A program made the position numbers and the translations under genes. A stretch of DNA of 42,957 nucleotides from Pseudomonadota bacterium (GTDB taxonomy: Bacteria; Pseudomonadota; Gammaproteobacteria; Acidiferrobacterales; Acidiferrobacteraceae), in contig JAJYDN010000012.1 of NCBI GenBank assembly GCA_021777535.1, positions 11,173-54,129 of the forward strand. The letters are read 5' to 3'. The notes under the pieces were generated by a model, which was not told the origin of the DNA, ran no database searches, and saw only the letters and a list, made by a program, of their open reading frames with translations. The stretch's first letter is position 1; each line of letters starts with the position of its first letter. Below, one piece after another: positions 15,539-38,657 of the stretch.

Positions 15539-16957
15539 TTGAAATCTTTCAGTGACGAGCGTCTTCATTCGACGCTGGGCGACATCAATCTGCTGCGGGC
15601 GACGCCGTCGGCGGGCGAGATCCTGGCCAGCCGCATCGTCATGGCCGTGCTCTTCATTGGCTGCCTGGTGACCGTGCCATTCGCCGTGGACCAGTGGCCC
15701 CCCTCGCAGATGTTGTACGCAGGCGCCGGCATGGCGTCCTTTGCGGAGATCGCGACGGGCATCTTGCTGCTGACCCAGGCGCGCTTGCTGCGCCGCTACT
15801 CGGGATTGGCGCTCGGTCTTGGATACTTCCTGGGCGGCCTGATCGTGCTCGTCGTGATCCTGGTGCCGCAGACCCTGGACGAAAACGTGTGGCTCTTTCG
15901 CATCTGGCACGGCCAGTTCGTCACGGCCGTGCTGGCCTATGCCGTCTTGCATGTGAGGCATGACGGTCCGCCTGGGCATCGCCGTGCGGTCCGCATAGGG
16001 CCGGCGGTGATGGCGGCCGTGGGGATCGTCACCCTGATCGTGGCCTATCTCATCTTTCGTCCGTTTGCGCTGCCTGTCATCATCCATGGGCTCGATTACG
16101 CGACGGGGCCGAACCTTTTTATCAACGGTATCCAGTTCACTGTCATCGCGCTCGCGTGGTGGATGCTCGTGACCGCGCCGCGCAAGACGGTGCTGTCGGT
16201 CTGGATGGCGGTCGTCGCGTGTGCGATCGCCATCGACATCGTCCTGTTTGTGCTGGGTGGCAGGCTCTTTACGGTCGGCCTGTACATTTCGAAGCTAAAC
16301 AACCTGATCGGGGCAACCTTGATCTTCGGGGTGTTTTTCTACCATTACATCCGCATCCAGGGAGAACTGTACCGGCACCGCATTACGCTCGTGCGGGCCA
16401 ACCGGCAGCTCACGCGGCTGGCACTCAAGGATACGCTCACCGGTCTGCCTAACCGTGCAGGCCTGGAAAGGTGCCTGAATCACGTTCTGGCGCGAGCGGA
16501 ACGCGTCCAGGGGCAAGGGGCCGTCTGCGTGATCGATCTCGATGATTTCAAGAAGATAAACGACCAGTATGGGCACGAGACGGGAGACAGGCTTTTGTGC
16601 GCGTTCGGCAAGCGCGTTGCGCGGGTGTTGCGCAAAGGCGAGGAATTCGGGCGATTGGGCGGTGACGAGTTCGTGCTGGTGCTCGAGGATCTCCTTGGCA
16701 TGGAAGAACTCGAGGCCGTCATGGATCGCGTGACGAACGCGCTGGCAGAACCGTTTTCGTTGCCAGACGGGTCCGGTTTTCGGGTCAATGTGAGCATCGG
16801 GGCGGCATTTTTTCGCGGACAGAGCACGGTGGGCGATCTGATGCGGGGGGCGGATCAGGCCCTCTATCGCGTGAAGGCGGACAAGGCCCACAGGCGGCGC
16901 AATTGGGCAGTCTGTTCGCGCACTCTGCTGGATGCGGAGGCGGCAGCGGCGGAATAG
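15539..16957 (+). CDS. Membrane-bound diguanylate cyclase, MASE4-like sensor plus GGDEF
   Basis: A 472-residue protein predicted to make cyclic di-GMP at the inner membrane. Residues about 30-270 contain roughly eight hydrophobic segments (e.g. IVMAVLFIGCLVTVPFAVD and LGYFLGGLIVLVVILV) that resemble the MASE4 integral membrane sensor. A short helix (RANRQLTRLALKDTLTGLPNRAGL) leads into the GGDEF domain, with RLGGDEFVLVLEDL at about residue 374, so the active-site motif is intact. At the inhibitory-site position the sequence is RKGE rather than RxxD, so product inhibition may be weakened. I chose the TTG at 15539 because AAAGAGGTGG stands before it and the residues upstream are not protein-like. 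It lies 144 nt before polX and 3 kb before the adhesin. Confidence 0.9.
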   Translation: MKSFSDERLHSTLGDINLLRATPSAGEILASRIVMAVLFIGCLVTVPFAVDQWPPSQMLYAGAGMASFAEIATGILLLTQARLLRRYSGLALGLGYFLGGLIVLVVILVPQTLDENVWLFRIWHGQFVTAVLAYAVLHVRHDGPPGHRRAVRIGPAVMAAVGIVTLIVAYLIFRPFALPVIIHGLDYATGPNLFINGIQFTVIALAWWMLVTAPRKTVLSVWMAVVACAIAIDIVLFVLGGRLFTVGLYISKLNNLIGATLIFGVFFYHYIRIQGELYRHRITLVRANRQLTRLALKDTLTGLPNRAGLERCLNHVLARAERVQGQGAVCVIDLDDFKKINDQYGHETGDRLLCAFGKRVARVLRKGEEFGRLGGDEFVLVLEDLLGMEELEAVMDRVTNALAEPFSLPDGSGFRVNVSIGAAFFRGQSTVGDLMRGADQALYRVKADKAHRRRNWAVCSRTLLDAEAAAAE

Positions 16958-17101
16958 GCGGTGCGACGAGGGTATTTGGCGCGGATCGGGTAATCGGGCT
17001 GGAAATCCGGATTGGCCGTCCCCATTTTTTTGAGAGATCCGGGTGAGCGGGGTACGCCATCGCATCCTTGAGATGCGGGCGGGAACGCAAAGGGGTCTGC
17101 C

Positions 17102-18853
17102 ATGCCTGTACACAATGCCGACATCGCGGCGGCGTTTTCCGAGATCGCAGATCTTCTGGAGATCCAGGGTGCCAACGCCTTCCGGGTGCGCGCCTACCGC
17201 AATGCCGCGCGCACGGTCAATGAATACGGCCGGGATCTCGCAAGTCTCATCGGTCACGGCGAAGCCCTGCCCAAGCTGCCCGGGATCGGTGTGGATCTCA
17301 CGGCCAAGATCGAAGAGATCGCCCGTACCGGCCACAGCGCCTTTCTCGATGGTCTGCACAAGAGTTGGCCGCCTGCGGTCACGGCCCTTCTGCGGATTCC
17401 CGGTCTTGGGCCCAAGCGGGTCCGCATCCTCTATGAAAATCTGCAGGTGCGCACGCTGGCCGATCTCGATGCGGCAGTGCGCGGTGGCCGCTTGCGCCAA
17501 TTGCCGGGATTCGGTCCGCGCACGGAAGAGAACATCCGCCGCGTGCTGGCCGCCCATCTCACGAAGGCCGAGCGTTTTTCGCTGGCCGTGGCCGGCGACT
17601 ACGCGCAGGCGCTCATCATCTATCTCGGCGCGCTCCCCGGCGTGGAGCGGGCCATCGTCGCCGGCAGCTTCCGGCGCCGGCGCGAAACGGTCGGGGATCT
17701 GGATATCCTGGTTACGGCGTCCGCTGGCGCTTCGATCATCGAGCGGTTTGCGGCCTACGATGAGGTAAAGGAGGTCCTTTCGCGCGGGACCACGCGGGCG
17801 AGCGTACGCCTGCGTTGTGGTCTGCAGGTGGATTTGCGGGTCGTGGCGCAGGAAAGTTATGGCGCCGCTTTGCATTATTTTACGGGATCGAAGGCGCACA
17901 GCATCGCATTGCGGCGTCTTGCGCAGGCGCGGGGCCTGAAGATCAACGAATATGGTGTTTTTCGCGGCCGTGTGCGCGTGGCAGGCGAAACGGAGGAATC
18001 GGTATACGCGGCCCTCGGGCTCCCTTACATCCCCCCGGAGCTGCGCGAGAACCGCGGTGAAATCGAAGCGGCGCGCGCAGGAGTCCTGCCGAGACTTGTC
18101 GAGCGGGCCGAGTTGCGCGGGGACTTGCACAGCCATACGATGGCAAGCGACGGCCACGACAGTCTCGAGGACATGGCCCGCGCCGCGCACACCCAGGGAC
18201 TTTCCTATCTCGCGATCACCGACCATTCGCCGTATCTTGCGGTGACCCATGGCCTCGATCCGCGCCGGCTCGCCAAACAGGGGGCTGCCATCGACGCGTG
18301 GAACGCGGCGCACCCGGAGATCACGCTCCTGAAGGGCATCGAGGTCGATATTCTGGAAGACGGCAGTCTCGACCTGCCGGATGCCGCCTTACGGTCTCTC
18401 GATATCGTCGTCGCGGCGGTGCACAGCCATTTCAATTTCTCGCGCGCCCGCCAGACCGAGCGTATCCTGCGCGCCCTCGATCACCCGTCCGTAAGGATAC
18501 TGGCGCACCCCACGGGCCGCCTGATCGGCGCACGGGAACCCTACGATGTCGACATGGCGCGCATCATCCGCAAGGCGCGCGAACGGGGTTGTCATCTCGA
18601 ACTGAATGCGCAGCCGGACCGGCTCGATCTCGCCGATGTGTATTGCCAGATGGCGCGCTCGGAGGGCGTGTTGGTGAGTATCGACTCCGATGCCCACGCC
18701 ACGCGCGATTTCCGTCATCTCGATCTCGGGATCGGACAGGCACGGCGCGGCTGGCTCGAGCCACGCAACGTATTGAATACCCGCAATCTTTCGGAACTGA
18801 AAGCGCTTTTGCGGGGCGGCCGCGCAGAACCTGTGCCCGGCGGTGCACGCTGA
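17102..18853 (+). CDS. polX: DNA polymerase/3'-5' exonuclease PolX
   Basis: A 583-residue bacterial family X polymerase used in base excision and gap-filling repair. The order is: helical 8-kDa lyase-type domain with helix-hairpin-helix motifs (LPKLPGIGVDLTAKI, LLRIPGLGPKRVRIL, RQLPGFGPRTEENI); nucleotidyltransferase palm with GSFRRRRETVGDLDILV giving two metal-binding Asp and LQVDLRVV the third; thumb with ALHYFTGSKAHSIALRRLA; and a C-terminal PHP exonuclease domain (GDLHSHTMASDGHDS, ITDHSPY, GIEVDILEDG, VHSHFN, SIDSDAHA). All PHP metal ligands I can check are present. The length is typical. It is 144 nt downstream of the cyclase gene on the same strand and may share its transcript. Confidence 0.96.
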   Translation: MPVHNADIAAAFSEIADLLEIQGANAFRVRAYRNAARTVNEYGRDLASLIGHGEALPKLPGIGVDLTAKIEEIARTGHSAFLDGLHKSWPPAVTALLRIPGLGPKRVRILYENLQVRTLADLDAAVRGGRLRQLPGFGPRTEENIRRVLAAHLTKAERFSLAVAGDYAQALIIYLGALPGVERAIVAGSFRRRRETVGDLDILVTASAGASIIERFAAYDEVKEVLSRGTTRASVRLRCGLQVDLRVVAQESYGAALHYFTGSKAHSIALRRLAQARGLKINEYGVFRGRVRVAGETEESVYAALGLPYIPPELRENRGEIEAARAGVLPRLVERAELRGDLHSHTMASDGHDSLEDMARAAHTQGLSYLAITDHSPYLAVTHGLDPRRLAKQGAAIDAWNAAHPEITLLKGIEVDILEDGSLDLPDAALRSLDIVVAAVHSHFNFSRARQTERILRALDHPSVRILAHPTGRLIGAREPYDVDMARIIRKARERGCHLELNAQPDRLDLADVYCQMARSEGVLVSIDSDAHATRDFRHLDLGIGQARRGWLEPRNVLNTRNLSELKALLRGGRAEPVPGGAR

Positions 18854-19533
18854 TCGACAAGCGGGGGGGGGCGGGTGTATACGACCGCGGCGCCAGCGGA
18901 AAGCGGCGCGAAAGGCGAGTTTCCCGCCGGTCATTTCAGCGCGTGCAGCGATCATGCCGGAGGGAGGGGGATTTTCGCAAAGCCTGGTACCGGCCCCTAC
19001 AAGAGGGCAACGGGTTCGCGCCCGCCGTTGGCATTGGCGGCCGAGGGCGCGTGTCGTAGCGAAGCGGGATGCGGGCTTTGATGCGGCCGGGCGCCACGCC
19101 ACGGCAGACGGCAACCACAGAAAAGGGGCCCGACTGCATGAAACGTCCGCATACGGGGCATTATACGGCGCGTGGCGAGGGGGGGCGTGAGAGCAGATGC
19201 AGGGGCAGGGTTAGGCGCACCTCGTCTAATGCTCGAACGAAGCTTCGTTGCCTGGATCGCTTTGCGTGTCGTGCGCCCAGTGGGCACGGTATGGGCGCTC
19301 GCAGTAACTCGCGCTTGGCGGCCGCTCGGAGTGCGAGAAATAAGCGGCATTTCAATTAGATAGTCGCCGCCATGTGGCGGAGCATGCACATTGGCCGTCA
19401 CAACCAAACGGTGCCCCAGATGCGCTGCCTTCAATAGCTGCAAACTTATATTGCCAACGCCGGACGTAAATTGCTTACTTGTGGCGGTGAAAGCAGGGCG
19501 GCCGCGCAACGAACAATTTTGTTTCACCCCGCG

Positions 19534-19561
19534 TTGACTTTCCGCAAAATGGTGGAATAAT
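19534..19561 (+). promoter_or_regulatory. Predicted sigma70-type promoter upstream of the adhesin leader
   Basis: TTGACT (19534-19539) and AATAAT (19556-19561) are separated by 16 nt, five of six matches to consensus in each box. This is the best-looking promoter in the 1245-nt gene-free stretch 18854-20098, and it lies where GC content drops. Transcription would begin near 19568 and run about 530 nt before the adhesin start codon. Confidence 0.55.
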
Positions 19562-19567
19562 GGCCCT

Positions 19568-20098
19568 CCAAGAATTGGACACAATCTTAGTCAGATAATA
19601 ATTTTAATTATACAAACAATCGGAACCTATAAAAACTCGCCCCGAAGGGGTTCGGTAGGCGAAGGCGCGGCAGCAGACTGAGATCTGGTAGCGCCAAGGA
19701 TTGTTGGAAACGTATCGCCCGACAAGAGAACGTCCATTGGAACCGCAACGGTTCAAATGGTGGATTCAGGCCCAAAAAAAGGGCTCTGTCGGTAGCTGGG
19801 GTGGGTAGTTAAAACACAATAACGGGTTGTACCGAGTATTCCGCTCGTGGAAGGGGTGCTTGCGGTCGTCGTTCGTGTCGGATACGGGTCGGTCTGCGCG
19901 CAGCGTAGGTCCTGTGTTGGGCAAGCGGCGGTTGGAACGCCCGCGTCTGCCACACGGGCAGGCCGGGGCTGTGGGTAAGTGCGCCGCAACCATCCTCTCC
20001 GTTATTGCTTCGGGCGCCGGTACGGCGGGAGTGAACATCTGTTCGCGCCGCCGTTCAGGTCCCCTACATGGGTGCTGCTGCGTATTGGGAGAGAGAAG
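19568..20098 (+). other. Long untranslated leader or small-RNA region before the adhesin
   Basis: No convincing reading frame fills this stretch. It has several short hairpins, such as CGCCCCGAAGGGG near 19640, AACCGCAACGGTT at 19740-19752 and GCCCAAAAAAAGGGC near 19771-19785. I could not match it to a known riboswitch. The part 18854-19533 also holds no gene; the minus-strand frame there has no recognisable domain. Confidence 0.35.
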
Positions 20099-23000
20099 AT
20101 GAATAGAATTTACCGGCTGGTCTGGTCGCATGTCACGCGTTGTCTTGTTCCGGTACCCGAGGTGGCGCGCAGCCATCGCCGTGCGGGACGCGATGCGGCG
20201 CGGTCAGTGGGCGCGTCACGCAAGCCCGTGTGGGCGGCGGCACCGGCCTTTGCCATGGGGCTTTCGCTCCTGGCCTTGAGTGAGGCCGCGCAAGCGGTGA
20301 CGCCGGTTACGGTCAATTCCGGCCAGACGCAGATTTTTTACGGTGATGGAGCCGGCTCGGACGGAGTGGCTCTTACCGACAACGGGACGGTCAATCTCTC
20401 CACGATCCAAACCCAGACCTATACCGCACCAGGGTCTCAGGTCATCACTGCGCCCACGGGTTCCGTCGGCATGGACGCGACCGTGGCAGGCGGAGGCGGT
20501 GGCGGCGGGACCGCAGCGGGTGGCGCAGGCGAAGTAATCTCCAATATTCTGGTGCCCTATACCAGTCTTCCGAACGGGCTGGATATCGTCGTCGGCGGAG
20601 GCGGCGCATCCGCCGGCAATACACAAGCTGGCGGTGGCGGCGGAGCGAGTGGCATTTTCGACGGCACACCCGCGCAATCCAATGCGCTGGTAGTCGCCGG
20701 CGGGGGCGGCGGCGGTGGTGGTACTACCGCGAGCGGCGGGACCGCAACGGCGGGCGGGATGGCTGGAGCGCCGACGGGCACGGTCAGCACGGCTCCGGCC
20801 TACGGAACAGGAGGCCAAGCAACCGGCAGCACGAGTACGGCGGGCAGCAATGGGACGGCCTTCGGTGCCGGCGGTGCGGGCGGCACAACGAATAGCGGCG
20901 GTTTTGGCGGCGGCGGTGGCGGCGGGTCGGGTTCGAGCACGTCTGGCGGCGGTGGTGGCGGCGGTTATGTCGGTGGCAGTGGCGGCGGCGGAGGCAGTGG
21001 CGGCGGCCTGAGTTACATTTCGAGCACCGTCTCTGCGTACAACGCCGATCTGACGCCGCCAAATAGTTACACGAATAGCGCCGATAACAACGGCGGTAGC
21101 GCCGGGTCGGCGGGAGGCAATGGAACCATCACCCTCCAGTTTCTGTTTCCTCACACATACACCATCGACACGCTGTCCGGATCCGGGCAGATCGATACGG
21201 CCACGGGCGCCAATGCGGTGTCGCTCGCCATTGCCGATGCCGGCGACAACGGCAGTGGCAGCGGTACGTTTGCGGGTGTCATCACGGGCGCCGGGGACTT
21301 CACCGTGGGCGGTGGCGCAGAGACGCTATCGGGAGCCAACACCTATACAGGGGCCACGGTCATCGATTCCGGGGCTACTCTGATTGTTTCGGGCTCTGGC
21401 TCCATCGCCAACTCGAGCAGCGTGACAGACAGCGGCATGCTCGACATATCTGGTGTTGCGCCCTCCGGGGCATCCATCAGCGTGAATGTGTTGACGGGGG
21501 CCGGCACGGTAGACTTGGGCGGCAACGATCTGACCGTGTCCGATGTGGGCACGATCTCCCCGAACCAGACCATCGATGCGGCGCACCCGGCCATTTTCAA
21601 CGGTGTTTTGAGTGACGGTGGCGCGGCCGGCGGGACAGGCGGCAGTCTGACCGTTGGGAGCGGCTTCCAGGAATTGAGCGGCCAGAACACCTATACCGGT
21701 GCGACGACGATCGACGCCGGCGCCGATCTTCTGCTCGGCAATACGAACGCTCTTACCACATCCAGCACCGTGACCGACAGCGGCACGCTCGATCTCTCCC
21801 CCATCACTGGCGGCATCGTCAACATCACGACTTTGCAGGGTGCCGGGACGGTGAACCTCGGGCCGAATCAGAGTGTCGAGCTTGCGCTCACCAATGCCGG
21901 CGGGACCTTCAATGGCATGATCCAGGGGGCGGGCAACCTTTTAGTCGGTGGCGGCGCGGAAACACTCGGCGACGCCAACACGTTCACCGGGCAGACCCTC
22001 ATCGGGCCGGGCGCAAGCCTCGTTCTGGCCAATGCAGGCGCATTGACAGATTCCGCCAACGTCTCCGATCAGGGTACCCTCGACCTGTCTGGTCTTGCAT
22101 CCGGATCGGTGGCGACTATTGGCAGTCTGTCGGATTCCGCCACAACGGGTCTGGTCAATCTTGGCGGCAATACGCTCGATATAACCAACGGATCCGGAAA
22201 TTTCGCCGGTGTGATAACGGGCACGGGGGGCGCGCTTGAGGTCAGCGGCAATCCGTCCGGGCAGGTTCAGTATCTGTCTGGCAACAACAACTACACGGGC
22301 ACAACGATCATCGAGGCGGGTGCTTCGTTGGGGATCTCCGGGACCGGCAGTCTCGCGCAGAGCAGCGGGATAACGGACAACGGCACCTTCGATATTTCCC
22401 AGGCGAATGCCGGTGCGAGTCCTTCCGCTACCACGGTCGGCACGGGCGTAACCGTTTCGGTGCAGACGCTGACCGGGAACGGCGCGGTGACGCTTGGCAA
22501 CAACAGTCTCACCATTGGAAACGCAAGTCCCGTAAGCAGTCCAGCCGGTACGTCGTTTACAGGCGTCATAGCGGGCAAAGGCGGTCTCACACTGGCCGCA
22601 GGCACGCAGGCTCTGACGGGCGTCAACGGTTACACCGGGATCACCACGATCGATTCGGGTGCGACGCTTGCGCTCGCGAACGCAGGATCAGTCTCCCAGT
22701 CCCAGGATATCGTCGATAGCGGCGTTTTCGATGTCGGCAAATCGGCCCTGCCGGGCAATGTCGGTCCCCTAACGGACAACATCCAGAGTCTGGATGGCGG
22801 CGGCGTCGTGGCGCTCGGTGCCAACAACATCGCGCTCAGCCACGCCAACGGCAATTTTGTAGGCACGATCACGGGTTCTGGCGGCCTGTTGATGGCAGGC
22901 GGCACGGAAAACCTGAACGGGGCCAATACCTATACGGGCGCGACCTTCATCAATCAGGGTGCCGATCTGACGCTCGCGGGAGCCGGTAGCGTGGGCGCGT

Positions 23001-26000
23001 CCACGCTCGTGCAGGACGAGGGAACGATCGATATATCGGGCGCCAATGGGCCGGTGACGCTGAATAATCTGTCGGGCGCGGCGGGCAGCCTGGTCGACAT
23101 GGGTACGCAATCGCTGATCGTGAATTCAGCAGCTAGCGCGCTGAATACTCAGAACGACACCTTTGCCGGCGCCATAACGGGCAATGGTGGCCTGACCATC
23201 GCAAGCGGTACGGAAACCCTCGGTGGCGTCAACCGCTATTTTGGAGCGACGACTATCGATGCGGGTGCGACGCTGGGGCTAAATGGCGGCGGCAGCATCA
23301 GTGACTCGAGTCATATCATCGATAACGGCACATTGGATGTGTCGGGCATCGATACGGGGACGCCGGTTCTTGTGCAGAGCATCTCTGGTGCCGCCGGCAG
23401 CAGCCTGAACCTCGGTAACAACAGCCTCGACATTGCGGCTGGCAGTGATACGTACGGGGGCGTGATAGGGGGCAATGGCGGCCTTACGGTGTCCGGTGGC
23501 GAGGAGACCCTCGGTAACGCCAGCACATATACCGGCGAAACCGTGGTGGACCGCGGCGCCCAGCTCAACTTTTCGGGCAACGGCAGCATCGCCAATTCCA
23601 ACGGGCTTGTCGCCAATGGCACAGTCGATATTTCTGCGATAACGCCACAGGATTTCACCGTGGCTTCGTCGGTGTCTGGCGCAGGCGAGATCAATCTCGG
23701 CGGCAAAACCCTGGTTTTGGCCAGCGGCGCCAGTACGCCGGGCGATTGGGCCTTTACGGGCCTTGTAAACGGATCGGGATCAGCCGGCTACTATACGGCA
23801 TCCAACACGTTCGTCACGCTCGAGAAGGGACAGGGAGCCGCGGCACCCGCCACGATCACCGGCAATCCGGTGATTCAGCCGGCCACCGGGCAGGCGCAGA
23901 TCACCATGTCAGGCAATGGTGGCGCCGGTTATTTCCTGAATAATCAGCAAAACCTGACCATCAACAACGCGGTAATGGAAAATTACGTCGCCCAGGGCGG
24001 CGCCGGGAGCGGTGGCGGCGCGGGACTTGGTGGGGCCATCTTCGTTGGTAACGGATCGTCTGCAACCATCGATAACACAACCTTTCAAAACAATACGGCC
24101 ATTGGCGGTGAAGGTGGTGTCGGAACGGCAGGCGGGTCCTTGGACAGCCTAGAGTCGTCTCAAAACGGCACGAACGGCGCCGCCGGGGCGACGTTTGGCG
24201 GCCAACCGTTCCAATCCTATGTTCATCTGACGGGTGGGTCCGGTACAGATGGACAGTCCGTGTCCGGTGCGTCCGGTGGGTCGGGTGGCAATGGTGGCGC
24301 TGGCGCGAGCTACGGGGTGATCACCGGCGCGAACAGCTTCGGCGAGTCGATCGTATTGCAGGAACAGCAGGTGGCGGAGGCCGTTTCGCAGCGCAGCCTC
24401 GATATCAGTAATCTGGCAGAAACCATCGCCGGCCAGCTGAAGGATGCCTCCGACCTGGTTCTGGATGCCAACGAGATCACTTCTACAGGCGCGGACGCAG
24501 CCGCCACGACCACCGAGAACGCTGCCATCACCGCGGAAGGCGTCGATCTCACCAGTCTAGCAGCGGTCGATGCCGCTGTGGCCGTGACCGACGGCGTGTC
24601 GGCCGCGGTCGACGCGGCCGATGCGGCCGACGTTTTTGAGGCACCCCTTGCGGCCACGGATGCCGCTGAAAACGTCGCCAAGGCCGTTGAAGACGGAGTC
24701 GCGGCCGGTGAAGTGCTGGCCAGCGACAGCACGGTGCTGGCGACCGATTCGACGGCTGCTGTGGCTGTTGCCGCAGACGCGAGTCTGCAGACGGCGGATG
24801 CGGCCAAGATTGCCGCCGACATTTATCAGATCAATGTGGATCTGGCAGCAGAAGTGACAGCAGGGCTTGTGATCCAAAACGACACGGCCAGCGTCAATAC
24901 GAACATCCAGGGCCTGAAGTATTTGGTGACCAATTCCAACAACGGCCTGGAGGGATACCTGGGGGCGGCTGCCGCCGGTACCATCGGGCAGGGAAGCCAG
25001 GGGGGTGCGGGGGGTCTTGGCGGCAACGGCGGTTTCGGATTCGGCGGCGGTGCGGGTGGTTCGGGTGGCGCGGGTGGCGCGGGGGCTTCTGTTAACGAGA
25101 CGCTGAATTTGGCGGATGTCTTGCAGACCCTGGGTTTTAGCAATGATCCCTATACCACGGGTCAGGCTGGTCTTTCGGGAACCATTACTTATAACGGCGG
25201 CGCCGGCGGCGGTGATGGCGGGAATGGCGCGGCTGGCGGTGCCGGCGGCTTTGGTGCTGGTGGCGGTTCGGGTGGTGACGGCGGTCTCGGTGGGGCCTCG
25301 GGCAATGCGGCCAACCCCAACTGGGTCGGGCAGGTGGGCCTGGGCGGCGCAGGCGGTATCGCGGGTTTTGGTGGCGGTAACGGCGGCAGCGGCAGCGGTC
25401 TCAATGGGTCCGGTGGGTCCGGTGGCGGCGGTTCGGGCCTTGGCGGCGCGATCTTCGTGAACAGTGGCGGTGTGCTTACCGTCACCGGCAATAGCCTGTT
25501 TAAAGGCAATCAAGTCATTGGTGGCACGAGCCTGAACGGGGGCACGGCCGGTCAGGCGGCAGGTACGGCGCTCTTTATTATGAAAGGTGCGACCGTCACG
25601 CTCGATCCGGGTGCCGGTAACGTCATCACCTTCGACGACGGGATCGCCGACGACAGTGCGTCCAGCATCGCGGGCAGCGCACTGGCCGCCGGCAGCGGCG
25701 CATCCGTCAATATCGGCGACAGTGCCACACCGGGCGCCGATACGGGTTTGGTCATATTCAACGGCACCAATACATACAGTGGCCAGACGAATATCTACAG
25801 CGGTGCGCTGCAGGCAATCGACGGCGTCGGCATCGACCACTACAGCAATATCGACATCGCCGGCGGCGCGCTGCAGACGACCGGTATGTTCTCCCGCTTC
25901 GTGGGTACGGCGCCGAACGATATTCAATGGACGGCGGGCGGCGGATTCTCGGCGTTCGGTGGCGGCCTTACGGTGTCTTTGAATAATGGCGACCCTCTCA

Positions 26001-29000
26001 CGTGGGGCAGCGGGTCGTTCGAAGTGATCGGCGATCCTCTCGTCTTCGGTTCATCGAGTGCGAATGGCACGACCACCTTCACCAATGCCGTTGATCTGAA
26101 TGGTGCGACCGGCCGGGTCGTCGTGCAGGCGAACGCGGGGAACACAGATACCGCGATCATGTCCGGTGCGCTCTCAAATGGCGGACTGACGGTCGGAGGT
26201 TCGGGCATTCTGCAGCTGACTGCCGCCAATACCTACCAGGGTGAAACGACCATCAATGCCCGTGCCGATCTGCAACTGACCGGGATAGGCACGGTGGCGG
26301 ATTCCCAGGAAGTCCTCGACAACGGCATTCTTGACGTGTCGGGCGTGACGGGAACCGGGGGCACGGACCTCACGAGTCTCGCTGGCGGGGGCCAGGTCAT
26401 TCTGGGCGACACGGGTCTCATTCTGACCGATGCGGGCAGCAACGGGACCAACAGTGGCGATTTCGCGGGAGGGATCGATGGCCTGGGTGGACTGAGTGTC
26501 CAGGCGGGTACGGAAACCCTGTCGGGCGTGAATGGCTACAATGGGCCGACCACCATCGACGCGGGCGCGACGCTGCAGTTGCAAGGCAGCGGTTCGATCA
26601 GCAACACGGAAGTTGTCAACGACAACGGCACCTTCGATGTCTCCGGCGCCAATATCGCTGGCGCGCCGGTTGACGAAATCGTCGGGAGCTTGAGCGGTTC
26701 CGGTGCGGCCGATCTGGGCGCCAACAATCTGATTCTTGCGTCTGCTTTTTCATCCTACGCGGGCGTCGTGAGCGGCACCGGCGGTCTCACCGTGGCCCAT
26801 GGTACTGAAGGTCTGGGTGGTGTGAACACCTATACCGGCGCCACTACCATCGGCACCAATGCCACGCTGGCGCTCACCGGCAACGGCAGCGTGGCCGATT
26901 CGAGCGGCGTCAATGATCAGGGTCTCTTCGACATCTCGGGCGCATCCGGTCTGGAATCCGTGACCACACTGTCCGGCACGGGCAACGTGAACCTGGGTGC
27001 GAACAATCTGTTTGTGAGCCGTCCCGCCGGAATCTTGAGCGGCACTCTATCGGGATCCGGCGGTGTCGGCTTCGGCGCGGGCCAGGAGACCCTGACGGGC
27101 GCGAGTACCTATACGGGCGGTACCACCCTCAATGGCGGGAGCACAGTCTCGATCGCCGCCGCCGACAACTTGGGCAGTGGACCGATTATCTTCAATGGGG
27201 GCACGCTGGACGCGACGGGCAGCTTTACGGACAGCGCATTGATGTATGTGTCACCGCAAAACGGAACCATCGATAACGGCAGGTCCTCGTTGGAATTTAA
27301 CGGGAACATCAGCTATTACGGGGCACCGGACAATATCCTGTATCTGACGGGAAGCGGGACCACGGACCTGAATGGCACGATCACTGGCGTCACGGTCGAC
27401 AACGAAATTACCGGCAGCAATCCGTCAGGGCTCGATCTCGGATCGAACGCCAATGTGAATGTGGTGTCCTTCAATAGCACCGGATCGACGGCGATGGGTT
27501 CGGGCTCACAGATCCATACGAGCGGCGGGTTCTCGAACGCGGGCACTCTGACCATGAGTTCGGCGACCCTGATTGCGGCGGCGGGGGGTGTGAGCAATAC
27601 TGGTATCCTCAAGGTGGGATCATCGGCGGCTGGCGCGGCGACACCCGCAGAGGGATTGCCTGCCCAGGCCTTGGCAGGGCTGCCGGCTTATGCTGCCTGG
27701 GGTGCCGTGATGCCGACGGGTCTTGCCACGCTGCGAGGCAATTACACGAGCAGTGCGGGCAGCACGACCGACTTTGCCATCGCGCCCACTGCCTACACGC
27801 AACTCGGGGTGACCGGGAATGTCAGGTTGGGCGGTCAGTTGATCGTCCAGGCCGTACCGGGCGCCTTGCCCTACGTACGCAACACCTATGTACTCATGGG
27901 CCCCGCCGCTGGCACGTCGCAGTTGTCGGGGCAGTTCAGCGCGGTCACGGTAGAAGGCCTCCCGCAGGGTGACGTGTATCGGCTCCTGTACATCACAGAC
28001 CCGGCCGTTGCGCTCGTGGCGTACAACCCGAACCAGTTTGTCGATGCCGCGCAAACCGCCAACGAAACCGCGGTCGGTACGGTCCTCGACAGCGCGCTGC
28101 CGACCGCCACGGGCGCGCTGTTCAACCAGATGAACGCCCTCTATGGCGAGTCACCGGCGGCGCAGGCCGCAAGCCTGAACCAGATAGGCGGCGAAAGCTA
28201 TGCGGATGCGGGGGCGATTCTTCGGGCCACGGCATCGAATGCGTGGGCGCCTGTGTTCAACCGTATGGGGTTGAGCGGCACAAGCCGTTATCCGGGTCTC
28301 CACCACCACCATCATGTCTGGCTTGCGACCACTGGCGGTCTGGACAATTTCGGCGATAACGGCAATGCAACCGGCCTGTCTTCATCCGAGGCGGGGACGA
28401 CCATGGGCGCGGACTGGAAGAGCGGACCGTTCACGGCCGGTGTCGCGGGTGGGTACGAAGGGGTCTGGGGCAATCTGAATGCACCAGGCGCCGGAACCCT
28501 GACGGCGCATCTCTGGCAGTTTGGTGCGTATGGGGGTTGGCGAGACCATTCCAGCCGGGTCGGCGTACTCGTCGGCTACTCTGGTGGCCGGCTCGCCGCA
28601 AGCCGTTCTGTGAATCTCGGCACCAGCAGCTACCAGACGGCGGGCCAAGCGCCCGTGAGCGCGATTACCGCGGGCGTTCGTGCGGCGACCAGCGTGCGGC
28701 TGCGAGTTCTCACGGTGACACCGATCGCGGGATTGAGCTATGCGTGGGCCCATCTTGGGAGCATTTCAGAAAGCGGTGGTGGTCCGCTCAGTCTCAATGT
28801 GGCCGATCAGAACGACAACAGCCTGAACGCGCGGTTCCTCATGCGGGTGTCGCGCTCCTTCTCCTGGCTCGGTCTGGCATGGGCACCGAGTGCCGACGTG
28901 GGCTTGCGGCAGGCTCTGATCACCCCGTCCAGCACGGCGCAGGTAACCTTCGCAGGCATTCCGGGGCAAGGCTTCGCCATTAACGGGACGCGCGCCAACC

Positions 29001-29137
29001 GCACGATGGGCGTTGTGGGCGCCTCTTTGCATGTGTCGCTCACGAAGGATCTGGATATGCGGTTGAGCTATGAGGGCGAGTACGGCAGTAGCACGACCCT
29101 GAACACGTTCTCGGGTAACCTCAGCTATCGCTGGTAG
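20099..29137 (+). CDS. Giant type V autotransporter adhesin with PATR repeats and a looped-out alanine-rich segment
   Basis: A 3012-residue secreted adhesin-like autotransporter. The start MNRIYRLVWSHVTRCLVPV is an ESPR extended signal peptide, followed by a hydrophobic core and AQA cleavage site near residue 66. This fixes the start at 20099, behind GGAGAGAGAAG. Residues 128-304 are extremely glycine-rich. About 13 repeats of roughly 90 residues follow, with the core L(S/G)GxNTYTGxTxIDxGAxL, the passenger-associated beta-strand (PATR) unit: eight before and five after an interruption. The interruption (about 1270-1880) holds two Pmp-like GGAIF...FxxN modules, glycine-rich tracts and an alanine-rich segment (1414-1620). 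A linker helix (2650-2728) precedes the C-terminal beta-barrel of about 278 residues, ending LSYRW with an aromatic terminus. No protease motif was noticed. The role is surface adhesion or biofilm by inference. Confidence 0.95.
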   Translation: MNRIYRLVWSHVTRCLVPVPEVARSHRRAGRDAARSVGASRKPVWAAAPAFAMGLSLLALSEAAQAVTPVTVNSGQTQIFYGDGAGSDGVALTDNGTVNLSTIQTQTYTAPGSQVITAPTGSVGMDATVAGGGGGGGTAAGGAGEVISNILVPYTSLPNGLDIVVGGGGASAGNTQAGGGGGASGIFDGTPAQSNALVVAGGGGGGGGTTASGGTATAGGMAGAPTGTVSTAPAYGTGGQATGSTSTAGSNGTAFGAGGAGGTTNSGGFGGGGGGGSGSSTSGGGGGGGYVGGSGGGGGSGGGLSYISSTVSAYNADLTPPNSYTNSADNNGGSAGSAGGNGTITLQFLFPHTYTIDTLSGSGQIDTATGANAVSLAIADAGDNGSGSGTFAGVITGAGDFTVGGGAETLSGANTYTGATVIDSGATLIVSGSGSIANSSSVTDSGMLDISGVAPSGASISVNVLTGAGTVDLGGNDLTVSDVGTISPNQTIDAAHPAIFNGVLSDGGAAGGTGGSLTVGSGFQELSGQNTYTGATTIDAGADLLLGNTNALTTSSTVTDSGTLDLSPITGGIVNITTLQGAGTVNLGPNQSVELALTNAGGTFNGMIQGAGNLLVGGGAETLGDANTFTGQTLIGPGASLVLANAGALTDSANVSDQGTLDLSGLASGSVATIGSLSDSATTGLVNLGGNTLDITNGSGNFAGVITGTGGALEVSGNPSGQVQYLSGNNNYTGTTIIEAGASLGISGTGSLAQSSGITDNGTFDISQANAGASPSATTVGTGVTVSVQTLTGNGAVTLGNNSLTIGNASPVSSPAGTSFTGVIAGKGGLTLAAGTQALTGVNGYTGITTIDSGATLALANAGSVSQSQDIVDSGVFDVGKSALPGNVGPLTDNIQSLDGGGVVALGANNIALSHANGNFVGTITGSGGLLMAGGTENLNGANTYTGATFINQGADLTLAGAGSVGASTLVQDEGTIDISGANGPVTLNNLSGAAGSLVDMGTQSLIVNSAASALNTQNDTFAGAITGNGGLTIASGTETLGGVNRYFGATTIDAGATLGLNGGGSISDSSHIIDNGTLDVSGIDTGTPVLVQSISGAAGSSLNLGNNSLDIAAGSDTYGGVIGGNGGLTVSGGEETLGNASTYTGETVVDRGAQLNFSGNGSIANSNGLVANGTVDISAITPQDFTVASSVSGAGEINLGGKTLVLASGASTPGDWAFTGLVNGSGSAGYYTASNTFVTLEKGQGAAAPATITGNPVIQPATGQAQITMSGNGGAGYFLNNQQNLTINNAVMENYVAQGGAGSGGGAGLGGAIFVGNGSSATIDNTTFQNNTAIGGEGGVGTAGGSLDSLESSQNGTNGAAGATFGGQPFQSYVHLTGGSGTDGQSVSGASGGSGGNGGAGASYGVITGANSFGESIVLQEQQVAEAVSQRSLDISNLAETIAGQLKDASDLVLDANEITSTGADAAATTTENAAITAEGVDLTSLAAVDAAVAVTDGVSAAVDAADAADVFEAPLAATDAAENVAKAVEDGVAAGEVLASDSTVLATDSTAAVAVAADASLQTADAAKIAADIYQINVDLAAEVTAGLVIQNDTASVNTNIQGLKYLVTNSNNGLEGYLGAAAAGTIGQGSQGGAGGLGGNGGFGFGGGAGGSGGAGGAGASVNETLNLADVLQTLGFSNDPYTTGQAGLSGTITYNGGAGGGDGGNGAAGGAGGFGAGGGSGGDGGLGGASGNAANPNWVGQVGLGGAGGIAGFGGGNGGSGSGLNGSGGSGGGGSGLGGAIFVNSGGVLTVTGNSLFKGNQVIGGTSLNGGTAGQAAGTALFIMKGATVTLDPGAGNVITFDDGIADDSASSIAGSALAAGSGASVNIGDSATPGADTGLVIFNGTNTYSGQTNIYSGALQAIDGVGIDHYSNIDIAGGALQTTGMFSRFVGTAPNDIQWTAGGGFSAFGGGLTVSLNNGDPLTWGSGSFEVIGDPLVFGSSSANGTTTFTNAVDLNGATGRVVVQANAGNTDTAIMSGALSNGGLTVGGSGILQLTAANTYQGETTINARADLQLTGIGTVADSQEVLDNGILDVSGVTGTGGTDLTSLAGGGQVILGDTGLILTDAGSNGTNSGDFAGGIDGLGGLSVQAGTETLSGVNGYNGPTTIDAGATLQLQGSGSISNTEVVNDNGTFDVSGANIAGAPVDEIVGSLSGSGAADLGANNLILASAFSSYAGVVSGTGGLTVAHGTEGLGGVNTYTGATTIGTNATLALTGNGSVADSSGVNDQGLFDISGASGLESVTTLSGTGNVNLGANNLFVSRPAGILSGTLSGSGGVGFGAGQETLTGASTYTGGTTLNGGSTVSIAAADNLGSGPIIFNGGTLDATGSFTDSALMYVSPQNGTIDNGRSSLEFNGNISYYGAPDNILYLTGSGTTDLNGTITGVTVDNEITGSNPSGLDLGSNANVNVVSFNSTGSTAMGSGSQIHTSGGFSNAGTLTMSSATLIAAAGGVSNTGILKVGSSAAGAATPAEGLPAQALAGLPAYAAWGAVMPTGLATLRGNYTSSAGSTTDFAIAPTAYTQLGVTGNVRLGGQLIVQAVPGALPYVRNTYVLMGPAAGTSQLSGQFSAVTVEGLPQGDVYRLLYITDPAVALVAYNPNQFVDAAQTANETAVGTVLDSALPTATGALFNQMNALYGESPAAQAASLNQIGGESYADAGAILRATASNAWAPVFNRMGLSGTSRYPGLHHHHHVWLATTGGLDNFGDNGNATGLSSSEAGTTMGADWKSGPFTAGVAGGYEGVWGNLNAPGAGTLTAHLWQFGAYGGWRDHSSRVGVLVGYSGGRLAASRSVNLGTSSYQTAGQAPVSAITAGVRAATSVRLRVLTVTPIAGLSYAWAHLGSISESGGGPLSLNVADQNDNSLNARFLMRVSRSFSWLGLAWAPSADVGLRQALITPSSTAQVTFAGIPGQGFAINGTRANRTMGVVGASLHVSLTKDLDMRLSYEGEYGSSTTLNTFSGNLSYRW
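21325..23640 (+). repeat. First block of eight passenger repeats in the adhesin
   Basis: Eight units with the core LSGANTYTGATVIDSGATL and a following VTDSGxLDISG strand, at the protein level. Units differ enough that DNA-level identity is limited, suggesting old duplications. Five more units lie at about 25750-27200. Confidence 0.8.
24331..24970 (+). other. Alanine-rich, probably helical segment inside the adhesin passenger
   Basis: The segment starts near SIVLQEQQVAEAVSQRS and continues with repeated Ala/Val/Asp runs (AAVDAAVAVTDGVSAAVDA, ADAADVFEAPLAATDAAENV), ending before EGYLGAAAAG. Composition and heptad-like spacing suggest alpha-helix or coiled coil. It is flanked on both sides by glycine-rich stretches and by GGAIF/FxxN modules that belong to the beta-helix. 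It looks like a domain looped out of the stalk. Confidence 0.6.
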
Positions 29138-29222
29138 GCCGGATACGGGGAGGGCGACACGGCGTGTGTGGTCCTCCCTCCAGCGACGGCCGCCAGTGTC
29201 GTGCGCCCCTTAGAAGGCTCTG

Positions 29223-29250
29223 TTGAATGTCCTGTGCGCAATGCTATACA
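29223..29250 (+). promoter_or_regulatory. Predicted promoter of the degenerate-GGDEF gene
   Basis: TTGAAT (29223-29228) and TATACA (29245-29250) with a 16-nt spacer, 90 nt after the adhesin stop codon. It could drive the membrane GGDEF-like gene at 29648 separately from the adhesin. Confidence 0.45.
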
Positions 29251-29278
29251 TAGCGTCATAAGTAATGGCGTATGATCA

Positions 29279-29313
29279 TTACGGTATCTCCATTCCCTTT
29301 TGGGAGACCGTAA
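29279..29313. other. Imperfect hairpin downstream of the adhesin
   Basis: TTACGGTATCTCC faces GGGAGACCGTAA across a short loop (attccctttt). It could be a leader hairpin of the next gene or a weak terminator, but no T-run follows on either strand. The rest of 29138-29647 holds no gene that I can support. Confidence 0.4.
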
Positions 29314-29647
29314 AGTGCAGCCGCTTCCGATCCCGATCTGGCCCCTGAATCCTGGCCGCCCCAGCAACCTGCGCTAATGGCTTCCATTTGACTGGGGCGC
29401 GAATGGAAAATCCGGGTTTGATCAGGAATGAGCAAGCCTGATGGAGCGGCGCTCATTGACGTGCATCAAGCGTGCGGCGCAGGGCGCATGCTATCCATAA
29501 GCGGCAAGAAGGCGGACGCGGCAGTGAATACCCCTCGAGGGCTTCCTGTCCCGGCACGTCTCGTGAGAAGCGCCAGCCGCAGGCACGGACCTGACGGTAA
29601 AGAGGCGCCGGGTTGTGTGCATTGGAATTGCAAAAACGGGGGGCATC

Positions 29648-30847
29648 ATGAGTGCAGTGCAGTCGTCCAGAAGTATGAGTTTCCTGCGGGAAGTGTTTGC
29701 ATTGGAGCCTCACGAGGGGCTCGGTGTCATCGTTGCAGGTTCCTTTCCGGCATTTTTCGATCATAACCGGATGCGTCTTGTGCTCGCGCGCACACAGGCC
29801 ATTGCGCTTTTGTTTGCGGTGCTGGTTCCGCTATGGATCTTCGTGGACATGCAGGTGTTCCCGTATACGCTGTGGGCGCGCCTGGCGGTCGGCCGGGTGG
29901 TCGTATCGGTCGCCTTCAACTTTTTGGCCATCTACGCCGGACGCGTCATGCTGCGTGCAACCCGGGGCCAGGGGTTCGGATCGCTTGCGGTCTTGTTCCT
30001 GATTCCGGCCCTCTTTTTCCTGCTCGTGCTGTCCCAGCCGGTGCTCGCGATGGCGTCCGGCACCCGCTTGGGCGAATTCGGCGGGGCGGTGCCGACACTC
30101 TATATTCTTTTGCCGCTCATGTTCGTCGCGGGCATCAGTCTGTTTCCGCTCACCGTCTTGGAAAGCGCGCTTGTGGTCGTGCCGCTTCTGGCGGTGACCG
30201 CTACCTTGCTTGTGCGCAGCAAGACACTTCTGTCCGGAATGAACAGCCTGGCCGTGCTGTGGGTGGCCGCCTTGATCGGTGTGGTGGGGATTTTGGCGGC
30301 CGCAAGCCAGTTGCAGTTCATGCGCGAATCGTTCGAGCACAGGACCCGTGACCGGGCGACGGGGTTGCTCAACCGGACCGGTGGCGAGCAGTGGATCGAA
30401 TTCGCGGCTTCACGCCTCGAGGCGGGCGAGCCGCTTACCCTGTGTCTGCTCGCGTTCGATCACGCCGAATCGTTGCTTGGCAAGGGCATCCTGGCGCGCA
30501 TGATCGCCGATGTCGAACGGGTCCTGAAGGAAGGGGAGACCCTCATCTGGTGGGATTACGGCACGCTGGCCCTGGTGCTGCCGGCTGCCTGCGAGGAGGC
30601 CGTGCAACGGGTGCTCGCCGTCCGCTCGGCGCTTGCGGCGGGGCGGTATGGAGAGGGTAAGGTCCTGCGTTTCAGTGTGGGAGTCGCCGAAGCGCGGGAG
30701 GGGACCGGCGAATCGCCCGACCGGCTGATTCCGCTTGCCGAACTGCGTCTGCGCCAGGCGCGCGCCGGTGAAGGTCACCGCTTGCAGGGGTGCGGCCAAC
30801 AGGGTATTGCGCTCTTTCCGGTGGCAGCAGCCGGACAGGGCGTTTGA
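29648..30847 (+). CDS. Membrane protein with degenerate GGDEF-like domain
   Basis: A 399-residue inner-membrane protein. After a short cytoplasmic N-terminus come about six hydrophobic segments between residues 40 and 215 (e.g. AIALLFAVLVPLWIFVDM and YILLPLMFVAGISLFPLTV). Then a GGDEF-like fold begins with HRTRDRATGLLNRTGGEQWIEF, matching the usual DxLTGLxNR entry. At the active site the expected GGDEF is replaced by WWDYGTLALVLP, and the metal-binding Asp in the first strand region reads LCLLAFDHAESLLGKG. It should not make cyclic di-GMP, and may act as a receptor, partner or signalling relic. It follows the adhesin by 510 nt. I chose MSAVQSSRSM at 29648; an ATG a few codons downstream is also possible. 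Confidence 0.8.
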   Translation: MSAVQSSRSMSFLREVFALEPHEGLGVIVAGSFPAFFDHNRMRLVLARTQAIALLFAVLVPLWIFVDMQVFPYTLWARLAVGRVVVSVAFNFLAIYAGRVMLRATRGQGFGSLAVLFLIPALFFLLVLSQPVLAMASGTRLGEFGGAVPTLYILLPLMFVAGISLFPLTVLESALVVVPLLAVTATLLVRSKTLLSGMNSLAVLWVAALIGVVGILAAASQLQFMRESFEHRTRDRATGLLNRTGGEQWIEFAASRLEAGEPLTLCLLAFDHAESLLGKGILARMIADVERVLKEGETLIWWDYGTLALVLPAACEEAVQRVLAVRSALAAGRYGEGKVLRFSVGVAEAREGTGESPDRLIPLAELRLRQARAGEGHRLQGCGQQGIALFPVAAAGQGV

Positions 30848-30901
30848 GAATGGGCACGGCATGGGACTCATCGTGCCGTGGCGGCAGCCGGCACTGGCCC
30901 T

Positions 30902-30930
30902 TTGACGGTCGCGGCGAATCGTTTTATATA
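30902..30930 (+). promoter_or_regulatory. Predicted promoter of the marR-type gene
   Basis: TTGACG (30902-30907) and TATATA (30925-30930) with an ideal 17-nt spacer, ending 31 nt before the GTG start. The gene thus seems to be transcribed separately from the upstream gene. Confidence 0.6.
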
Positions 30931-30961
30931 GGGGTTTTGCCGCGCGACGGGGTGGCAGCTG

Positions 30962-31450
30962 GTGGATGAAGAGGCAGATCGACCGGGGGCGGGTGCGGCC
31001 GCACAGGAAGGGGGGTCTGCTGGCCGCGATCCGCTGCTTGGTGCCTTGCGCGAGCTTGCCGAGGCTTATCACGCCTTTGCGGCCTATTCGGCCGCGCACG
31101 TCCGCGAGATGGGACTTACTCCCGCACAATTCGATGTGATCGCAACGCTTGGGAACACGCAGGGGATGGCTTTGAGCCAGCTTGCGCAAAGGACGCTCAT
31201 CACCAAAGGCACGCTCACCGGCGTCATCGATCGCCTGGAGGCGAAAGGCCTCGTGCGGCGGGAGGTGCAAAGCGCCGACAGGCGCAGCTTCCGCGCCGTC
31301 CTGACGCCGGCGGGCGAGGCGCTCTTTGCGCGCGTGTTCCCGGCCCACATCGAGCACATCCGGGCGCTTTTTCAGGATGGCACGATCGATCTCGGAGAGA
31401 TCCGCAGGGCGCTTCGTGTGTTACGGGAGCGCTTCCGGGCGCCGGTCTGA
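30962..31450 (+). CDS. MarR-family transcriptional regulator
   Basis: A 162-residue protein with the MarR winged helix: LGALRELAEAYHAFAAYSA dimerisation helix, GLTPAQFDVIATLGNTQGMALSQLAQRTLITKGTLTGVIDRLEAKGLVRR (helix-turn-helix), and the wing SADRRSFRAVLTPAGEAL. The C-terminal helices complete the dimer arm. MarR proteins usually repress efflux or stress genes and release DNA when they bind phenolic or oxidising compounds. A plausible target is the EmrB-type exporter and YceI genes 1.5-4 kb away, but they are not adjacent, so this is a guess. The start is a GTG at 30962. The Gly/Ala-rich N-terminal 20 residues are not conserved in the family. Confidence 0.9.
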   Translation: MDEEADRPGAGAAAQEGGSAGRDPLLGALRELAEAYHAFAAYSAAHVREMGLTPAQFDVIATLGNTQGMALSQLAQRTLITKGTLTGVIDRLEAKGLVRREVQSADRRSFRAVLTPAGEALFARVFPAHIEHIRALFQDGTIDLGEIRRALRVLRERFRAPV

Positions 31451-35149: not shown

Positions 35150-35328
35150 GCGAAGGGGTGGGGCCGGTTTCCGGAAACCGAGCGGCCGTGGCCGCATGCG
35201 AATGCGTGCGTGCGGGGGCCTGTTCATGCCGGTAAAGCCTGAACCCGGGAGAGGGGAGGGTGCATGGCGCGCACGATGACGCCCGCGATGGCAAGGCCGT
35301 TGCACAAGGTGCTTTGCTGGCCGCGAAA

Positions 35329-35405
35329 TGGCGCGCCCGGAGAGATTCGAACTCCCGACCACCTGGTTCGTAGCCAGGTACTCTATCCAACTGAGCTACG
35401 GGCGC
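35329..35405 (-). tRNA. tRNA-Arg (anticodon ACG)
   Basis: On the minus strand the acceptor stem GCGCCCG pairs with CGGGCGC, followed by G and an encoded CCA. The D arm has GCTCAGTTGGATAGAGT, the anticodon arm CCTGG-CTACGAA-CCAGG gives ACG (read as ICG, arginine), and the T arm contains GTTCGAATC. All stems pair. Read antisense, the gene gives the well-known false protein start RPERFELPTTWFVARYSIQL, which falsely lengthens the following kinase frame. Confidence 0.97.
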
Positions 35406-35615
35406 GTAGAAGGATCCAAACGAAGCCGGGATTGTCCCTATTGGACCCGCGGCTGTCAAGCCAACGGCGGCCCGCTCCCGCTTCGGCGCGCCCGTCCGGC
35501 CGCGGATTTGCGGCGCGGCCGCCTGGTCCTGCAAAGGTTTCTCCGGTGGCGGCATGCGCGTGCGCAATGGGGTCGCCGGGATCCTGTTTTTGGCCTATTT
35601 AAGGGCCCGCGCACC

Positions 35616-38600: not shown

Positions 38601-38657
38601 CTGTCCGCCGTCCTGTATGGTCCGCCGGACAAGGACGGTCCTCCCACGTCCGCCTGA
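35616..38657 (+). CDS. Hybrid sensor histidine kinase with membrane sensor, PAS and receiver domains
   Basis: A 1013-residue inner-membrane protein. I chose the GTG at 35616, after AAGGG, because the longer frame reads antisense through a tRNA. Residues 13-235 hold about seven hydrophobic segments. An extracytoplasmic CHASE-like domain (about 240-450) is closed by a helix (LMLISGSLLALFAAAAVNA). A PAS domain (about 508-620; SIGDGVILTDTEGCIQIMNEAA) leads to the kinase core: GGIAHDFNNILTAIIGN with the phospho-acceptor His near 649, NVVLNAMEAM (N box), DSGPGI (G1) and GTGLGLAVAYSIM (G2). The C-terminal receiver (about 880-1002) has MDDDEA and the likely phospho-Asp in AAILDLTVA. No separate response regulator follows, so a phosphorelay to an unlinked protein or self-control is likely. 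The opgG-type gene starts 80 nt downstream. Confidence 0.93.
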   Translation: MKGTGGSIRFPGVASYPLLLAGIFSAFLGVAGLCGFYIGLICLVDPLRALAPLSVTPAFDLIIVGAIAISSALGLRRTALAGGLLGLVLIAVLAVGASPYTHGALHRMLVHANEIQGTAVWTGPLSECMAFVGVLGLLFTALRGMPLAGGFFGALLLAFSGAALVGQLSPIWPIWKTLGFVAPQVAVALCALSLALLASGWQDLKDHSYGFAVLAAIGSITVSIMLAGAMRAYERAELRRTSLAEAYSVADQLAGGVSRPVAIQAMIGRWQAFGVPPRRRAQGEARLLMRDMPEIAAIGWIAPSAHPVWWVSTRPPSGAIVKPLLEYHVRRLRILQYARRERHLVMTPPVRMLGHNRSFIVVEPVYRHGVLRGYLLSVFDAYRWLAHLIARQVARGYYVQVLYGGIPLFTRGTRGYCQYMQQVHVRFLGRRFRVTVCPQRRIVKQTDVGLPALMLISGSLLALFAAAAVNAMQRARWHAQLLDSMNSELEILVASRTAALKDERERWRVTLMSIGDGVILTDTEGCIQIMNEAAEHFTGYTNEAAHGRFLSSVLPLRDAATQRLMDRPRATNWGERGVVAHSAGMMFKDAGGRDRFVSDSIAPVQDERGAIAGFVVVFRDMTEHRALEEEAMKARSLEALGVLAGGIAHDFNNILTAIIGNIALAKLHGGADKRLLAALDDAEQSGWRARGLTLQLLTFAKGGAPVMRSGLIAEAIRDLVRFFLKGSRVRAVLDLPDDLWAAEFDRDQMGQVIQNVVLNAMEAMNEGGTLCVQGANVVLREGEVADLPGGSYVMIRFTDSGPGIKKEFLDRIFDPYFSLKSTGTGLGLAVAYSIMRRHHGAIVAQSAMGIGTTMILYLPRSYTGVVDVSAVGNARKPAGNGERILLMDDDEAVRKAGKALLAALGYEVIEAASGEEALRYFREDPDGFAAAILDLTVAGGMGGERCIAELRKIRPHVRALVSTGYSTDPVVARYRDYGFVGTIQKPYRLDDLASILSAVLYGPPDKDGPPTSA

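Follow-up and report, generated by a model that had tools for sequence, protein, structure and literature searches.

An autotransporter adhesin with a predicted polyglycine-II bundle and alpha-helical arm at an Omega-loop position of its beta-helical stalk

Models of the chlamydial Pmp proteins place an FxxN motif at turn T2 of the beta-helix and a GGA(I,V,L) motif at turn T4, with a variable Omega-loop between them at T3 (PMC10715098). In gp38 of phage S16, a PGII sandwich with receptor loops grows out of two beta-helix turns (PMC6851490; PMC12892980), while the GGX-rich tracts of the mycobacterial PE_PGRS proteins are predicted to form a PPII bundle with the alpha-helical PE domain alongside (PMC13243192). 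In the literature searched, most of it outside the subscription journals, no description of a PPII/PGII bundle in an autotransporter was found.

The sequence analyzed here, referred to as the window, was a 42,957-nucleotide stretch of a Pseudomonadota contig (JAJYDN010000012.1). An open frame runs uninterrupted on its forward strand from a GTG at 19979 to a stop codon at 29137 and encodes a single giant protein. Translation probably starts at the ATG at 20099, because the ESPR domain begins there (E 3.4e-11). The protein has the features of a classical type Va autotransporter: an ESPR start, a passenger, a beta-helix with PATR repeats and a C-terminal barrel that matched PF03797 in full (1-255/255, E 5.8e-38). 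The PATR profile, PF12951, scored above the cut-off over 10 stretches of the adhesin, and PATR unit cores were located at residues 450, 566, 663, 766, 879, 979, 1081 and 1178 (n=8) in the N-terminal stalk and at residues 1927, 2080, 2181, 2279 and 2372 (n=5) in the C-terminal stalk. A motif scan placed GGAIF at residues 1351 and 1822 and FxxN at residues 1369 and 1841. The order of the parts, read directly from the sequence, is eight PATR units, a GGAIF/FxxN module, glycine-rich sequence, an Ala/Val/Asp-rich insert, more glycine-rich sequence, a second GGAIF/FxxN module and five PATR units (Table 1), exactly as the first-pass annotation of this DNA had listed them. The two modules and the region that they enclose are called the cassette below.

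Table 1. Features of the adhesin gene, in window coordinates
Feature	Position	Strand	Basis
Whole autotransporter adhesin, 3,012 aa	20099..29137	+	ESPR start (E 3.4e-11), PATR, C-terminal PF03797 barrel (E 5.8e-38)
N-terminal stalk, eight PATR unit cores	21326..23542	+	PATR profile, motif scan
Beta-helix rungs preceding the loop, GSGGGAGLGGAIF (GGAIF at 24029) to FQNN (24083-24094)	23888..24094	+	Predicted strands, pLDDT about 70-92
449-residue loop from FxxN (residues 1369-1372) to GGAIF (residue 1822), putative giant Omega-loop	24095..25441	+	Motif scan, AlphaFold2, Pmp comparison
First glycine-rich tract, part of the predicted PPII/PGII bundle	24137..24322	+	Period-3 test, structural match
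Ala/Val/Asp-rich helical insert	24323..24994	+	Composition, periodicity, AlphaFold2 helices (mostly pLDDT under 60, largely under 50)
GGX tract with glycine period 3, predicted PPII/PGII bundle	24995..25090	+	Period-3 test, structural match
Smaller second side loop with short strands and a helix; most relatives have a shorter one	25085..25198	+	Alignment, AlphaFold2
GGX tracts closing the predicted bundle and leading into the second GGAIF	25193..25441	+	Alignment, period-3 test, structural match
Second GGAIF/FxxN module, containing the conserved IADDS block, where the beta-helix resumes	25442..25933	+	Alignment, AlphaFold2
C-terminal stalk, five PATR unit cores	25757..27124	+	PATR profile, motif scan
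Autotransporter beta-barrel domain	28316..29074	+	PF03797 match

The ESPR start is preceded by a long leader of 540 nt (window 19560-20098), with a promoter-like site (10/12) at 19534-19561. A riboswitch in this leader was rejected, as there was no Rfam match and the folding energy was ordinary. Near the N-terminus of the adhesin lies a second glycine-rich domain (residues 165-345, window 20471-21013) with long glycine runs and no period 3, which had no Pfam match and, by eye, resembles the ALK-type glycine-rich domains.

A profile of the second GGAIF/FxxN module matched 3 of 398 Pseudomonadota genomes, the window's own included, and none of the 59 genomes of other relatives. A sister of the same genus (L041, 8819-9249) has about 430 bp where the window has 10.8 kb (18822-29638), and the flanks on both sides (window 15572-18822 and 29638-31392), with a DNA polymerase X gene and a GGDEF-like gene, are syntenic between the two. 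The adhesin locus is sporadic and was probably acquired, loss in the sisters being the alternative; no long flanking repeats were found at its boundaries.

The match to GGDEF in the gene directly 3' of the adhesin (window 29615-30847) was weak, with an E of 1.2e-4, just under the cut-off. An FNR-like box, TTGACGTGCATCAAG, lies upstream of this gene at about 29470 and was also seen, by eye, in the sister genome. Further along the window, a tRNA-Arg(acg) at 35329-35405 (-) overlaps the first codons of the ORF at 35328-38657, a hybrid histidine kinase, whose true start must therefore lie further in. Two successive frames, 38696-40294 and 40270-41592, both match MdoG; the second covers profile positions 165-476 only and is therefore a tandem, possibly truncated copy.

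The insert comprises 224 residues (1449-1672, window 24323-24994; about 220 aa, or 221 as cut in the cassette alignment). The narrower limits proposed for it previously, 24331-24970, correspond to residues about 1452-1664, and the helices of the AlphaFold2 model described below span 1458-1664. Compared with the rest of the passenger, the insert is rich in alanine (24% vs 12%) and poor in glycine (7% vs 22%); it contains a single proline and has a net charge of -28. No other stretch of 200 residues in the passenger is as helix-prone, and none elsewhere scored above 0 on the index; the hydrophobicity of the insert has a 100-degree periodicity (z = 3.0) with no 170-degree (strand) signal. The GC3 of the insert and of the whole gene are equal (0.72), so a frameshift artifact is unlikely; with one open frame throughout, frameshift, assembly and wrong-frame artifacts were all rejected. 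A recent internal duplication was also rejected, as only short imperfect repeats were present. The insert sequence had no match in Pfam, NCBIfam, PDB sequences, 41 related genomes, 369 class genomes or plasmids, and a known domain was rejected, the match to a 5-nucleotidase (E 0.14) and those in the PDB (E 0.22 and 1.4) being at chance level. A search of genome contigs with the insert region found no relative, and no relative was found among viral contigs.

The cassette as a whole recurs in other bacteria. A tblastn search of plasmids matched three Novosphingobium megaplasmids, and the two that were inspected have the identical order of parts. When an alignment of the second GGAIF/FxxN module (A1) was used to search genome contigs, 21 loci were found, 15 of which include both modules and the helical segment. 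These 15 loci, to which the megaplasmids are additional, belong to the Alpha-, Beta- and Gammaproteobacteria, the Campylobacterales and the Verrucomicrobia. The hosts are Burkholderiales, another betaproteobacterium, Prosthecomicrobium, Roseomonas, Novosphingobium, a Hyphomicrobiales MAG, two Croceibacterium, Oceanicola, Pseudooceanicola, Loktanella, Peristeroidobacter, a Campylobacterales MAG, a Verrucomicrobia MAG and an Akkermansia MAG. More distant loci in Chlamydiia, Brevundimonas and Nostoc have glycine-rich loops between GGA motifs, with other cargo or none. The PF03797 barrel was present at the C-terminus of 7 of the 10 relatives tested. In all cassettes an Ala-rich helical segment occupies the identical position. 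The cassette of the relatives lies within the first 6-157 residues of the open frame, at the distal end, whereas that of the window protein is a mid-stalk one, preceded by eight PATR units and a further glycine-rich region. No Pfam or NCBIfam model names or covers the cassette and, as far as these sequence searches indicate, it is named by no curated family. The first-pass annotation was aware of no described type with this layout, and no named family covers it; it is not a one-off, however, since the same cassette is present in 15 other genomes from several phyla.

Some of the loci (L009, L010, L016, L014, L018 and L020-L026) carry an extra insertion of roughly 330-400 residues between the first FxxN and the glycine tract, made up of VGMxVTGxGIPAGTxIxxI-type repeats; the window protein does not have it. 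In L030, from a Brevundimonas MAG, a similar glycine-rich loop carries, where the helical hairpin would be, a segment that is rich in Tyr and has two Cys.

The conservation of the cassette was uneven. In a 14-row alignment (A2), the aligned relatives were 41-50% identical to the window protein. Mean pairwise identity in the first rung was 0.65, against 0.43 in shuffled sequences; module 2 reached 0.56 (shuffled, 0.34), the second glycine tract 0.62 (0.54) and the first 0.47 (0.43), and the helical segment of the aligned set, at 0.35, equaled its shuffled value of 0.35. This segment has 67-114 residues in the aligned relatives and 221 in the window protein, which therefore has the largest arm; its Ala-rich composition is kept across the aligned set. 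The dN/dS of the hairpin was 0.04-0.29 in five close pairs, a purifying selection similar to that on the scaffold, and a hypervariable hairpin was rejected because these pairs had no clear excess of change. In more distant pairs the hairpin was the least identical part. Purifying selection in close pairs, taken with shuffled-level identity, therefore indicates that the arm is maintained but, from one lineage to another, has been replaced or has become unrecognizable. Two features set the window protein apart, the length of its arm and the mid-stalk position of its cassette.

AlphaFold2 models of the window protein and of one relative, L015, were both built from the same 14 sequences, without a scrambled control. 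The L015 model (mean pLDDT 77.9) had rungs at residues 18-88, helices at 168-192 and 199-231 (pLDDT about 75-85) and rungs again from 344. In the window model (mean pLDDT 66.2) the rungs continued to residue 1375 and resumed from 1825 (pLDDT mostly about 80-94), with helices at residues 1458-1502, 1522-1548, 1555-1582, 1592-1629 and 1653-1664. The confidence of these helices was low (pLDDT blocks mostly 33-61), so that the hairpin is confidently predicted only in L015. Neither model continued the beta-helix through the segment. The helix propensity, the 100-degree periodicity and the predicted helices between rungs agree with the earlier proposal that a helical domain is looped out of the beta-helix. 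The loop lies between FQNN (residues 1369-1372) and, 449 residues later, GGAIF (residue 1822); the glycine-helix-glycine region is therefore at the position of an Omega-loop, within one rung.

The low pLDDT of the insert in the window model, largely under 50, would also suit a disordered acidic spacer, meaning an unfolded, flexible linker of low complexity, as would the lack of sequence conservation in the helical segment and its few composition types. Such a spacer is rather unlikely for several reasons, 1) the segment is under purifying selection and its position in the relatives is constant, 2) the L015 hairpin has a pLDDT of 75-85 and 3) the insert has helical periodicity and one proline in 224 residues.

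The top structural match of both models was the springtail antifreeze protein 7jjv, a bundle of nine PPII helices. It superposed on the L015 model with a Z of 18.6 and 1.9 Å over 121 residues (next row, Z 14.5) and on the window model with a Z of 14.7 and 1.9 Å over 117 residues (next row, Z 11.5). The matched range, 111..328 in L015 and residues about 1393-1809 in the window protein, encloses the helical arm, and the predicted bundle would therefore be built from the glycine tracts on both its sides. The beta-helix VIA matches of the models included TibA, Ag43 and pertactin (Z 10-12.5), and the L015 hairpin superposed on long coiled-coil hairpins. Plain Foldseek searches of the PDB and BFVD gave no match with an E under 0.001. 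Phage gp38 was absent among the structural matches listed (Foldseek PDB/BFVD and superposition lists), where an absent row does not exclude likeness. The cassette profile matched mostly glycine-rich linkers and unrelated proteins among PDB sequences, plus a weak match to IcsA.

Glycine had a significant period of 3 in the tracts of the window protein (p 0.0145, under 0.0005 and 0.0015; Gly content 42-59%) and, at p<0.05, in 11 of the 14 cassettes. The GGX signal supports the predicted bundle on sequence grounds alone. The first-pass annotation had taken these tracts for flexible hinges flanking the looped-out helical domain, a reading that accords with their glycine content and with a pLDDT that is only moderate (about 55-80) in both models. 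Hinges, however, would not need the tract length and sequence that are kept across phyla, and the GGX period of 3 and the 1.9 Å match to a rigid PPII bundle make them improbable; the tracts are better read as an ordered polyglycine-II bundle, predicted to lie within the 449-residue loop.

The match of the models to an antifreeze fold also raises the idea of ice or crystal-surface binding, in which the PPII bundle would be the active face, as in the springtail proteins, and the helices a side decoration. The relatives include two Antarctic species, Loktanella fryxellensis and Pseudooceanicola antarcticus, but there are gut and soil bacteria among the hosts as well, many of the X residues in GGX are charged or bulky, and phage gp38 uses the same fold for receptor binding. 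Ice binding is thus very improbable.

The reading that we favor, with a rough probability of 0.55, is that the segment forms the outer portion of a head for display or recognition, in which a PGII bundle in an Omega-loop would project an alpha-helical arm for contact with a partner. The passenger would be exported by the barrel, the beta-helix would fold and the Omega-loop would be extruded sideways. Within one rung, the loop that the FxxN and GGA(I) pair encloses would have been enlarged to 449 residues, and its GGX tracts would form a rigid PPII/PGII bundle that serves as a stiff bracket. The alpha-helical arm, a hairpin in the relatives and about four to five helices here, would be held out between two PPII helices, after which the chain would re-enter the next rung, so that the stalk itself would be uninterrupted. 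The bracket would project the arm sideways from the stalk to contact a partner, which may be another cell, a polymer or its own copy. What the sequences show directly is the anatomy of the segment, its conservation and its recurrence, whereas the fold is a prediction. We infer a binding role for this head and, among the spacer, interaction site and coiled-coil trap suggested initially, the interaction site is favored. A role in binding at the tip fits less well, as the cassette of the window protein is in mid-stalk and that of the relatives at the distal N-terminus.

Antigen 43 and TibA, which are among the beta-helix matches, are self-associating autotransporters. The acidic arms of neighboring molecules might likewise zip into coiled-coil bundles and give autoaggregation rather than binding of a foreign ligand; the amphipathic 100-degree periodicity of the insert and of several relatives, and the superposition of the hairpin on long coiled-coil hairpins, are compatible with this. 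It is the main alternative to the display head, but we regard it as unlikely, since like arms with a net charge of -28 would repel unless bridged by cations, coiled-coil hairpins are a common shape, and the Ag43/TibA match covers the beta-helix only.

If the display head is the correct reading, it would explain how type V secretion can accommodate a folded alpha-helical domain on a beta-helical passenger with the stalk unbroken. This part of the adhesin would join two rare structural themes, Pmp-type Omega-loops and predicted polyglycine-II bundles. The cassette lies outside the Pfam and NCBIfam models although it recurs across several phyla, an Akkermansia MAG included, and on this reading its anatomy would supply clean boundaries for deletion tests in laboratory strains.

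The adhesin shares ESPR, PATR repeats, a beta-helix and a PF03797 barrel with the AIDA-type autotransporters, including the pertactin, TibA and antigen 43 folds. To our knowledge, the solved passengers of this type (pertactin, TibA and antigen 43) have no PPII bundle or comparable helical insert. A variable loop bounded by an FxxN and GGA(I) pair in a beta-helical passenger is a feature shared with the Pmp proteins (PMC10715098), but the repeat region of the Pmps has 9-25 rungs, whereas here there are only two canonical motif pairs, inside a PATR stalk. The Pmp Omega-loops are without confidently predicted structure, while the 449-residue loop here has a predicted PPII bundle and a helical arm. 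PF02415 was not matched by the cassette module at E up to 10 or by the module halves at E up to 5 and, given only two canonical pairs, a similar way of working does not place the adhesin in the Pmp family. The likeness to springtail 7jjv extends over 117-121 residues at 1.9 Å with 40-43% identity, probably largely through glycine; 7jjv is a free-standing ice-binding protein, whereas here an alpha-helical arm would interrupt the predicted bundle, itself mounted on a beta-helix, and the likeness does not imply ice binding. In PE_PGRS, compared here by features and not by homology, the PE domain is N-terminal, outside the bundle, and the secretion route is another.

The gp38 proteins of phages S16 and PP01 share with the cassette beta-helix turns that run into a glycine-rich PGII lattice with intervening loops, which in gp38 meet the receptor (PMC6851490, PMC12892980). 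The loops of gp38 are short beta-turns, whereas one loop here is a helical hairpin, and the phage protein has hypervariable loops, unlike close relatives of the cassette; the likeness drawn here is one of architecture rather than of sequence, and does not by itself place the cassette in the gp38 family. Tentatively, and at somewhat less than even odds, the cassette may be a head domain found across phyla, in which the polyglycine-II bundle of the Omega-loop would be a socket for changeable alpha-helical cargo, with a conserved scaffold and a cargo free to change from lineage to lineage. Such a modular display platform would be convergent with the gp38 sandwich.
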